The notes under the pieces were generated by a model, which made no database searches, was not told where the DNA came from, and saw only the letters and a program-made list of their open reading frames with translations. 64,000 nt of DNA from Solibacillus merdavium (GTDB lineage Bacteria > Bacillota > Bacilli > Bacillales_A > Planococcaceae), in NCBI RefSeq assembly GCF_014836935.1, contig NZ_JACSPW010000011.1, positions 1 to 64,000 on the forward strand, given 5' to 3'. Of this stretch, positions 15,789 through 60,735 are shown piece after piece; position 1 is the first letter of the stretch, and each line of letters opens with the position of its first letter. The position numbers and the translations under genes are program-made.

Positions 15789-16928
15789 TTTAAATTCCTC
15801 CAAATAGTTTTTTAGTTTTTTTTTGCTCTTCCCTGGATCGTATAGAAAGTCATCTTTCTCGACGTTGGGTACGAGTTTCCTACACTTTGATAAAACATTA
15901 TTTGATACCTTGCGCCAAATTCATAGTAAGGCAATTAAAAGCTAATGTCCTCCCCCTTTGCACTTCACTTTTCGACTATGAATGTGGAACTAGATTTAGT
16001 ATAGACCGCCCCATAAATTTCCTCTCACCTCTAATGGGTGATTTTTAGCACTTTGGCATTCTACTTTCGAACTTACCCAACGGTATACTTTAGTGTTATC
16101 CGATATACTACTAATTGGTTAAACAGCATCTATAAATACTGATGTACCACCGTTTTATCTTTGTCCCATGAATACATCGGCTTCGATTTTTTCCCACATT
16201 GTTAATCATTGGAATTAAAATTGGTAAATACGACTATAATCAATTGACTTATTTTGATTTCCACTTTACATTAATAAGAAGTATTTTGTTTTACCTCCCC
16301 TATGGTTATTAGCTTCCAGAGGCGACCCTCACAATTCCTTTTGTTCTATTCTTAAATAAGATGCCTATTACTTATTTAGTGACGTGTTGCATTTAAACTA
16401 TATAATCGTATTTAGAAAATATTGTCGTATCTATTAATGGTGCTAATCATTCGTAGCAGAATTTTTTAACTACCCTATGAACAACTAATGGTTCCAATGG
16501 CTTTTAAACTACTGCTCAGTCATCAAAAGTGGTAGATTATGCTCTTACTTCCAACATAAATAGATATAAAACGACGAGATAAGCAAAAAGATTACAAAGA
16601 AAGTGCTTAAGGTTAAATATATAATGACAAAAAATTCCAAGGATAACTAAGTATAATGAATTAGAGTTTTTAATTTTCGAATATCATATTTCCGAAGTAA
16701 ATTCCACAGTAAATAGACCGAAAATTCCATCATCTAGTTCTTCAATCTTATTCAAAAATACACATACTACTTATTAACAGAACAAAGTTTTACATTAGGA
16801 GACTATGAAATACATCCTCAAACTGGGCACCTTGGATGTATGGAGTCAGTGGTGCAACCGGCCTCACTTCATTTGAAAGTCATTTCTTAGTAGCACTCTT
16901 TTTATATGAGTGGGGGGGCAATTTATTA
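15789..16928. other. Long divergent regulatory region between calY/tasA-like and luxR-like genes
   Basis: About 1.1 kb without a credible gene. Near 15840-15860 an AGAAAG/CTTTCT hairpin lies in the calY-side leader. On the luxR side there is a stem of ATACATCC (16810-16817) with GGATGTAT (16834-16841), extended by GACT/AGTC. A CACTC/GAGTG hairpin (16894-16912) abuts the G-run that forms the ribosome site. Such length and structure suggest several regulators. I could not assign a known riboswitch. Confidence 0.5.
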
Positions 16929-24286: not shown

Positions 24287-24608
24287 TTCTAATATATCGC
24301 GAAATGTTCTAATATAAATTTTTTTCTTCTAATATATTGCCGATTTTCTAATAAAAGTGCCCATTGTGCTAATAAGTCCTCCCAATGTTCAAATAAAACT
24401 CGGAAATGTGCTAATATCCCCTCACTATTTTCTAATAACCCTCTTCAATCTTCTAATAAAACCCACGCACCCACTTCATCCAACGATCCAACCCCGTCCC
24501 CACCCCAAATCCGCGTATCTTCTAATATCCCGCACAACTTTTCCAATAAACGCACTCAATCTTCTAATAAAACCCACGCACCCAGCAACCCACCCCGATT
24601 TTCTAATA
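24287..24608 (+). repeat. Element A, copy 1: phased TTCTAATA boxes
   Basis: Boxes of the form TTCTAATA, TGCTAATA or TTCAAATA start at 24287, 24307, 24327, 24346, 24367, 24388, 24409, 24430 and 24451. The intervals are 20, 20, 19 and then five of 21. Further boxes start at 24520, 24541, 24562 and 24601. Spacers differ in sequence, but the geometry matches copies at 37537 and 47637. Confidence 0.85.
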
Positions 24609-24649
24609 AAATCCGCACCGCACGCGCCGAGCCACAACTCAGTCCCCAC

Positions 24650-24694
24650 AACAAAAAAACAGCACCGGCAAAATACCGATGCTGCGAAGCCAAC
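24650..24694 (-). terminator. Terminator of the MFS gene
   Basis: On the minus strand GCAGCATCGGT pairs with CCGGTGCTG, followed by TTTTTTTG. Confidence 0.85.
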
Positions 24695-33206: not shown

Positions 33207-33367
33207 CATGTTGTTTTCCGCTACGGCGGGCGCTTTCCCCAGGCACGAGGCCAACACGATGTTGATCACAAAAGCGTTGCCACAGGACGTGGCGTTTTTA
33301 GCTTTTGTTCCCTGCGCTCTCCCTTGTGCGGTTCCCGGTGGAGTCGCCGCCTTCGCTCCAAACAACT
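33207..33367 (+). repeat. Dispersed intergenic repeat with internal hairpin insertion
   Basis: Outer parts (GTTGTTTTCCGCTACGGCGG, GGCGCTTTCCCC, GGTGGAGTCGCCGCCTTCGC and a final CAAACAAC) match the 11600 family. The middle holds GCGTTGCCACAGGACGTGGC, a GCCAC/GTGGC hairpin also seen at 43022. It lies between pgk and tpiA and must be transcribed with them unless it ends transcripts. Confidence 0.7.
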
Positions 33368-37536: not shown

Positions 37537-37722
37537 TATTAGAAAATCTTTGCAACATATTAGCACTTCCAACTAACATATTAGCACTTTAATAACACTT
37601 ATTAGCAAATGAACCCCACTTATTTGAACATCCGACACTTTTATTAGCAAATCAACATTTTATTAGAACAATCGCAAAACATATTAGAACATCCCGGGCA
37701 CATATTAGAAAACCGCCGCCGC
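37537..37722 (-). repeat. Element A, copy 2: nine phased boxes, inverted
   Basis: On the plus strand TATTAG/TATTTG heads start at 37537, 37558, 37579, 37600, 37621, 37642, 37661, 37682 and 37703. Read on the minus strand, the intervals are 21, 21, 19 and five of 21, matching copies 1 and 3. The short third spacer (AAATGTTGATT) resembles those of the other copies. Confidence 0.88.
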
Positions 37723-43019: not shown

Positions 43020-43078
43020 GGGCCCACAGGACGTGGTCAGGCAGCCGTTGTCGCACGATGCGACGCTGTTAGGCTGAC
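43020..43078 (+). repeat. Degenerate hairpin repeat between preA and the permease gene
   Basis: CCACAGGACGTGG (43022-43034) matches the hairpin inside the 33207 repeat. GTCGCACGATGCGAC forms a second stem. It lies inside the operon and could affect message processing. Confidence 0.55.
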
Positions 43079-43109
43079 ATACATTCCTTTAAAAATATTT
43101 ACCAGGGGA

Positions 43110-47636: not shown

Positions 47637-47810
47637 TTCTAATAAACTTAAAAATATTCTAATATATTCTTATTTGTTCTAATATAAGTTTGATCTGCTA
47701 ATAAAACCTCAAAATGTTCTAAAAAAGGTGCACATTGTTCTAAAATCCCCTCTCAACCTTCTAATATCCCACCCGCAATTTCTAATATCCCCCACAATTG
47801 TTCTAATAAA
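47637..47810 (+). repeat. Element A, copy 3: nine phased TTCTAATA boxes
   Basis: Boxes start at 47637, 47657, 47677, 47696, 47717, 47738, 47759, 47780 and 47801. The intervals 20, 20, 19, 21, 21, 21, 21, 21 equal those of the first nine boxes at 24287. Box 4 is TGCTAATA; boxes 5 and 6 are TTCTAAAA. Confidence 0.88.
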
Positions 47811-60594: not shown

Positions 60595-60735
60595 TAATCG
60601 CCACAAAGGTAAGCATATTCGCCACTTTCAATTGAATATTCGCCACTGTGCTTCATTTATTCGTCACTTTCAATCGAATATTCGCCACTGTGCTTCATTT
60701 ATTCGCCACTCCTCAATAAATATTCGCCACTTTGC
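60595..60735 (+). repeat. 21-bp-period TATTCGCCACT array
   Basis: TATTCGCCACT/TATTCGTCACT heads start at 60616, 60637, 60658, 60679, 60700 and 60721, exactly 21 bp apart; a weaker TAATCGCCAC unit is at 60595. Degenerate units may extend to 60553. The tails CAATTGAA/CAATCGAA and GTGCTTCATT alternate. Confidence 0.88.

Follow-up and report, generated by a model that had tools for sequence, protein, structure and literature searches.

Box arrays in the window

The window, by which we mean the whole 64-kb stretch of DNA analysed, is part of a 3.78-Mb assembly in 56 contigs (genome G000), and it carries three arrays of nine TTCTAATA boxes, here called dialect A, together with a seven-box array of a second word, here called dialect B (Table 1). 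When the window was re-scanned, the three nine-box copies described in an earlier note were confirmed, as was the series of intervals between box starts: 20, 20, 19, 21, 21, 21, 21, 21 bp in copies 1 and 3 and 21, 21, 19, 21, 21, 21, 21, 21 bp in copy 2. The third spacer was 11 nt long in each copy, ending in GATT in copies 1 and 2 and in GATC in copy 3. The four additional boxes of copy 1 were likewise present; from box 9 onward they follow at intervals of 69, 21, 21 and 39 bp, and the one at 24541 reads TTCCAATA. This tail was matched separately (24516-24610, E 3.0e-6) by R1, a sequence-only model built from 29 arrays and used with a cut-off of E <= 1e-5. Between the array with its tail and the end of the minus-strand MFS gene (MFS_1) lies a terminator-like hairpin. 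The window contains 23 exact copies of TTCTAATA, whereas 100 dinucleotide shuffles had 4.76 on average and never more than 11. Its boxes form a chain of up to 9 at 19-22 bp; in 50 dinucleotide shuffles the longest such chain had 1-2 boxes.

Table 1. Arrays and other features located in the window
Feature	Position	Strand	Remarks
Dialect A nine-box array, copy 1	24287..24458	+	TTCTAATA boxes; R1 model E 1.3e-30
Box starts of copy 1	24287, 24307, 24327, 24346, 24367, 24388, 24409, 24430, 24451	+	
Four-box tail of copy 1	24520, 24541, 24562, 24601 (24520..24608)	+	
Intrinsic-terminator-like hairpin and T-run for the MFS gene	24653..24684	-	read by eye
Dialect A nine-box array, copy 2	37537..37710	-	R1 model E 4.5e-28
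Dialect A nine-box array, copy 3	47637..47808	+	R1 model E 1.3e-29
Dialect B array, seven G[GA]CGA[AT]TA boxes	60595..60728	-	21-bp steps, no 19-bp step
Cyclic di-GMP-II riboswitch aptamer (RF01786)	16789-16872	+	
Bacillaceae-1 sRNA match (RF01690)	33251-33317	-	
Bacillaceae-1 sRNA match (RF01690)	43023-43088	-	9.8 kb from the other RF01690 match

Geometry of the dialect A arrays

For an unconstrained view of the spacing, chains were collected with any interval of 12-32 bp and 12 box variants allowed; the loci had been found through their boxes, and orthologs were included. Among the 175 chains of at least four boxes (shorter chains fall outside this count), 89 had nine boxes and 65 had four. 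The 1030 intervals measured 21 bp in 732 cases, 20 bp in 187 and 19 bp in 103, with 8 of any other length, so that this larger sample did not show the freely varying spacing by which, according to the earlier note, its reading would have been refuted. The 19-bp step was the third interval in 88 of the 89 nine-box chains and the fourth in the remaining one, which starts with an interval of 17. The nine-box arrays span 171-174 bp. As for the four-box chains, 54 of the 65 follow another chain at a distance of 60-95 bp, and such tail units therefore explain most of the second peak; 5 more are fragments of longer arrays, and the other 6 are of different kinds. Tail units are sometimes repeated at ~144 bp, with their linkers duplicated too.

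The earlier note had reasoned that all boxes face one side of the DNA. At 10.5 bp per turn this holds for boxes 4-9, which are in phase, and fails for boxes 3, 2 and 1, which in the three commonest interval series are rotated by ~69, 103 and 103-137 degrees, respectively.

Conservation of boxes and spacers

Sequence change at shared sites was compared between orthologs. From 28 groups 3 were dropped, and the 25 one-to-one groups kept gave 95 species pairs, which are not independent of one another. Of 6840 box sites 203 differed (3.0%), as did 2328 of 9197 sites in equal-length spacers (25.3%). In the two 80-bp flanks 29.6% and 33.9% of the aligned sites differed, and gap columns made up 22% and 13%, respectively. 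These values support the earlier proposal that conserved geometry with drifting spacers reflects selection on box placement. The scan by which the orthologs were collected admits only near-standard intervals and so favours intact geometry; the absence of indels in this set is accordingly not independent proof, and the free-spacing scan is the better evidence on that point. The companion claim, that spacers are free, is not wholly right: conservation is highest at the boxes and the positions adjoining them, and also in spacers 2 and 3.

The centre of the array is more relaxed. In a set of 106 arrays drawn from five genomes, 100 had at least one off-consensus box among boxes 5-7. Across 30 loci, with the six species that have at least 55 model matches as their representatives, the number of off-consensus boxes in this region was one at 20 loci, two at 8 and none at 2, a tighter distribution than expected (p 0.0018), and when G000 and G003 were added (54 loci) the same statistic was not significant (p 0.30). 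TTCAAATA at box 6 is the commonest central variant in G009, G010 and G014. Concerted change of a box variant inside dialect A arrays was also considered and rejected: a T-to-G change at the second position of the box was clustered within arrays of G003 (p 0.0045), and no such clustering was found in the four other genomes examined.

Genomic position and transcription

Genes were called as open reading frames, not by a gene finder. Flanking gene pairs were tabulated in the orientation of the array at 55 loci, a set in which L153 and L157 are listed twice and some ortholog pairs (L002/L098 and L003/L093, for example) were missed. The pairs were (-,-) at 27 loci, (+,-) at 17, (+,+) at 7 and (-,+) at 4, so at least one gene 3' end faces the array at 51 of the 55. 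The orientation of codirectional loci differs by genus: Solibacillus has 27 (-,-) and 7 (+,+), and the second genus, g18, has 11 (+,+) and 5 (-,-). An intrinsic terminator was predicted between the array and the right-hand gene in 38 of 44 cases and between the array and the left-hand gene in 18 of 24, which places the arrays mostly outside predicted transcription units. The 20 flanking proteins examined showed no functional theme, being mostly a mixture of metabolic and transport proteins; 3 of them lacked a Pfam hit at 1e-10.

Arrays of this spacing might be operators of an ordinary transcription regulator that controls the neighbouring genes, comparable to the direct repeats at two helical turns bound by LytTR proteins. 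LytTR sites typically have direct repeats spaced at 21 bp, and those of the AgrA/ComE type are ~9-bp repeats ~21 bp apart on one strand, occurring as pairs at promoters. The predominance of 21-bp intervals agrees with this explanation, as does the arrangement at (-,-) loci, where the next gene begins on the side of box 1. We nevertheless consider it distinctly unlikely. The 17 loci between convergent genes offer no promoter to control, the neighbouring proteins are functionally mixed, and nine boxes, often with no promoter nearby and at dozens of loci, in our judgement exceed what ordinary operators require. Nor, at the level of family totals, does the number of LytTR proteins go with that of the arrays: each of 16 genomes contains 4-6 LytTR matches, however many arrays it has.

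RNA structure and coding capacity

The earlier note had offered a structured 3' RNA as an alternative to a binding array, and the orientation bias towards the right-hand gene in Solibacillus would fit a structured or protein-binding RNA of 3' regions. The folding results speak against it. Copy 1 folded no better than shuffled sequence on either strand (z +0.68 and +1.56), the 29-copy alignment contained 0 consensus base pairs, and no Rfam covariance model reached its gathering score on an array, either in the window or at 20 loci; this last result also agrees with the earlier note, which did not recognise the array as a family. With predicted terminators mostly lying between gene and array as well, an RNA function appears highly improbable.

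A coding or relic-coding origin was suggested by the minus strand, on which the boxes would encode [IL]-L-E every 21 nt as in a heptad repeat, and on which the box variants, read by eye, give I/L, L/F and E/A. Minus-strand spacer codons showed no deficit of stops (24 in 544, against 19.7 in column shuffles), and intervals of 19 and 20 bp break the frame. On these grounds the coding explanation was refuted, and the probability that we would still attach to it is practically nil. Being non-coding, without an RNA fold and mostly beyond a predicted terminator, the array probably acts at the level of DNA.

Distribution among genomes

The array is common in eight Solibacillus species, that of the window among them. 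A triple-box pattern gave 62 matches in the window genome and 0 when reversed; in the family it matched 15 of 261 genomes, among them 11 of 16 Solibacillus genomes and 2 of 25 in g18. The R1 model, whose counts include tail units and partial arrays, matched 32 times in the window genome and 31-106 times in seven other Solibacillus species (G003 31, G004 89, G005 55, G006 75, G009 87, G010 95, G014 106). The remaining genomes are array-poor, with 3 matches in G013, 2 each in G001 and G002, 1 weak match each in G007 and G011, and 0 in G008, G012 and G015. Since 8 of the 16 Solibacillus genomes thus have 0-3 matches, whatever the arrays do is not needed by the genus. At the site of copy 3 (47.6 kb) an array occupies the same intergenic gap in all eight array-rich genomes, and the six array-poor species compared (G007 and G011 were outside the comparison) have other sequence there.

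Outside Solibacillus, an array is also present in Ureibacillus acetophenoni, where at one locus (L101, 4962-5329) a GGCGAATA array directly adjoins a TTCTAATA array in the same intergenic region. Genera g12 and g13 gave one TCCTAATA match apiece to the triple-box pattern in the 261-genome scan; in light of the de novo scan described below, the TCCTAATA triples of G086 and G103 may represent another word. In g18 the TTCTAATA boxes come in four-box modules with 21-bp steps; a 40-bp step then follows, as though the fifth box had been left out. Five two-module arrays (L170, L178, L180, L181, L192) span 173-174 bp and so match the 171-174 bp of the nine-box arrays; other arrays of this genus have more modules, with 103-bp modules repeated many times.

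A viral, phage or plasmid origin was examined and discarded. Thirteen viral stretches contained a box triple, in chains of 3-6 boxes, several of them plain short tandem repeats, and none of the 13 had a nine-box array; blastn with copy 1 found no plasmid or phage match. Plasmid iterons are short direct repeats at about two helical turns that are bound by one protein. The arrays differ from them in occupying dozens of chromosomal intergenic sites, in having nine boxes with a 19-bp third step, in the absence of the Rep family among the 20 flanking proteins and in lacking a plasmid match.

Comparison with interspersed repeats

Bacterial intergenic repeats to which no function has been assigned (STAR, BOX, REP) are a long-standing puzzle. 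Full-text searching, with slight coverage of subscription papers, found no description of the present arrays, which belong among the bacterial interspersed intergenic direct repeats, the STAR element being the closest kind. The staphylococcal STAR motif is described (PMC3532100) as TNTGTTGNGGCCC, a GC-rich 14-mer with at least 40 bp between motifs and a single motif at most loci, having no assigned function and a copy number that differs sharply between related species. The arrays resemble STAR in being intergenic, interspersed direct repeats with locus-specific spacers and uneven copy number between related species, and they depart from it in their 8-bp, mostly AT boxes (TTCTAATA or G[GA]CGAATA), their intervals of 19-21 bp and their nine-box chains or four-box tails in place of a mostly single motif.

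The main rival to a DNA-binding assembly site is a selfish repeat of the STAR or REP kind, spread by some dispersal mechanism without host function, in which the boxes would be conserved for the needs of dispersal. Such an element would account for the range of 0 to 106 model matches within one genus, for intergenic copies that rarely lie between divergent genes, for tail units duplicated with their linkers and for the multiplied 103-bp modules of g18. It accounts less well for a site occupied in every array-rich species, and at shared sites the boxes change ~eight times less than the spacers, unlike those of a dead insertion. The eightfold difference speaks against a dead element, not against one maintained by its own machinery. 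No inverted repeat of at least 10 nt was found inside the copy 1 array, its surroundings showed none but two unrelated pairs to its left, and the flanks of the arrays share no sequence beyond a few bases. On balance we regard the selfish repeat as rather unlikely.

In G014 and G000 the TTCTAATA strand has more G than C immediately to the left of box 1, most strongly so in G014, and more C than G over 100-200 bp to the right of box 9. Whether the G-rich left flank pairs with the C-rich right one was considered, and such pairing was set aside as not convincing: in 61 arrays, own flanks paired at -16.3 kcal/mol and crossed flanks at -15.5 kcal/mol (permutation p 0.05), which is not beyond chance.

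A second word on the same spacing

The dialect B array of the window lies between convergent genes that we take to be crh and clpP, and it has a counterpart at the same site in G003 with the word GRCGATTATC. Dialect B triples were found in 12 of 261 family genomes and 5 of 19 genera, against one control hit overall. Two of the hits, in g8, resemble simple 21-bp tandem repeats and may have nothing to do with dialect B arrays; in g8 genomes, L284 and L285 are plain 21-bp tandem repeats of CCCGCGGAAGCAAGGCGAATA type, each probably a minisatellite and not a ruler array. Of the 11 Solibacillus dialect B arrays, 4 (L312, L287, L292, L366) include a 19-bp step, which, on a reading that draws on weak flanking boxes, would be the third; the other 7, the one in Table 1 included, are without it. 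G233 shows the same arrangement of four boxes, a 40-bp step and four boxes in both dialect A (L167, L170, L174) and dialect B (L293, L311).

One orthologous gap contains different words in different species. From the ends of the flanking proteins we take it to be the rny-recA gap. Seven Solibacillus species have a TTCTAATA array here, interrupted by an insertion in G003; the window genome has G[GA]CGA[AT]TA boxes at intervals of 21, 19, 21, 21, 21, 21 and 21 bp, and G013 has TATTTGCG/TATTTACG boxes. The interrupting sequence in G003 (L267) is a ~60-bp tttttagatatctt...catactaacctca element, a close relative of which lies just before another array of G000 (L021), and it is perhaps a separate small dispersed repeat.

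The exchange of words also bears on a role in DNA topology. E. coli REP/BIME elements are gyrase sites, and a comparable site, wrapped by a topoisomerase near gene ends, could explain the gene 3' ends that face nearly all arrays, the ~172-bp span and the in-phase boxes 4-9. Enterobacterial REP/BIME elements are dispersed and often lie at gene 3' ends, and are palindromic and structured. The arrays are dispersed too, but consist of direct repeats with no palindromic unit or fold. Gyrase is universal, whereas the arrays are confined to some genera and species, and exchangeable 8-bp words should be needless for gyrase; a topology site is thus very unlikely.

Proposed binding of the arrays and other words

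The earlier note had read these boxes as a binding array for a multimeric DNA-binding protein, and this is still the best reading, the binding itself being what we infer. With moderate confidence, we propose that each array acts as DNA, being the place where a putative protein, with paralogues for the different words, assembles cooperatively into a complex of ~172 bp with a chromosomal role. What is observed is the fixed geometry, the slow change of the boxes, the non-coding sequence without an RNA fold, the position mostly beyond predicted terminators, the relaxed centre and the other words on the same ruler; the last two, and the span of ~173 bp shared with a second genus, go beyond the earlier note. 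A putative sequence-specific protein, or a small family of paralogues with one member per box word, would bind each box together with its flanking bases and pack cooperatively along the helix at two-turn steps, and two strong groups of boxes around the relaxed centre would give rise to one nucleoprotein complex. Complexes of this kind would lie in the stretch from a terminator to the transcription unit that follows. Their likeliest use would be chromosomal, either in marking boundaries or insulating between transcription units or in organising the nucleoid, because the sites mostly avoid transcribed DNA.

Words other than the two dialects were sought de novo as any 7-mer occurring at least 5 times with dissimilar spacers, at maximum steps of 14-30 bp (15-29 in a second run), in samples of unequal size (19-200 kb). 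Chains appeared almost only where steps of 20-22 bp were allowed: 4 in the window, 6 in G014 (at four places), 5 in G086, 3 each in G013 and G103, 2 in G032, 1 in G255 and 1 in a 19-kb stretch of G003. With steps restricted to 20-22 bp, G086 gave 6, G032 gave 4, and G074 and G255 gave 1 each; steps outside that range yielded a single chain each in G008 (<= 14) and G032 (15-17). No de novo array was found in G008 (200 kb), in G094 (120 kb), in G140, G165, G045 and G258 (~20 kb each) or in 100 kb of E. coli. The words vary from array to array. Among 17 de novo arrays examined, 3 overlap with an open frame (96-137 aa), whereas the rest lie between open frames.

Fixed spacing with exchangeable words is expected if the ruler comes from the geometry of a protein oligomer and the word from its DNA-reading surface. 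We therefore suggest, more tentatively, that these are bacterial chromosomal ruler arrays, in which spacing and span are conserved through a shared protein architecture and a word of 7-10 bp, recognised by paralogous readers, is exchangeable; geometry and word would form a two-part addressing code laid over the untranscribed gaps of genomes in this family. The suggestion is a joint one and takes in steps of 20-21 bp, in two genera a span of ~173 bp in which strong boxes form two groups on either side of a relaxed centre, and the possibility that the whole array at one site switches its word between sister species. If it is true, there would be a family of DNA-binding proteins with conserved oligomer geometry and diversifying specificity. 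In these arrays selection can be read site by site, with words and spacing kept while spacers drift. Eight species offer shared sites for comparison, and species with about a hundred copies stand beside congeners that lack the array, which makes function directly testable.

G014 has, alongside dialect A, a word of the TTCTAC type: at L352:3971-4240, boxes of this type at 21 bp form neighbouring chains of 8 and 5 that overlap a 104-aa open frame.
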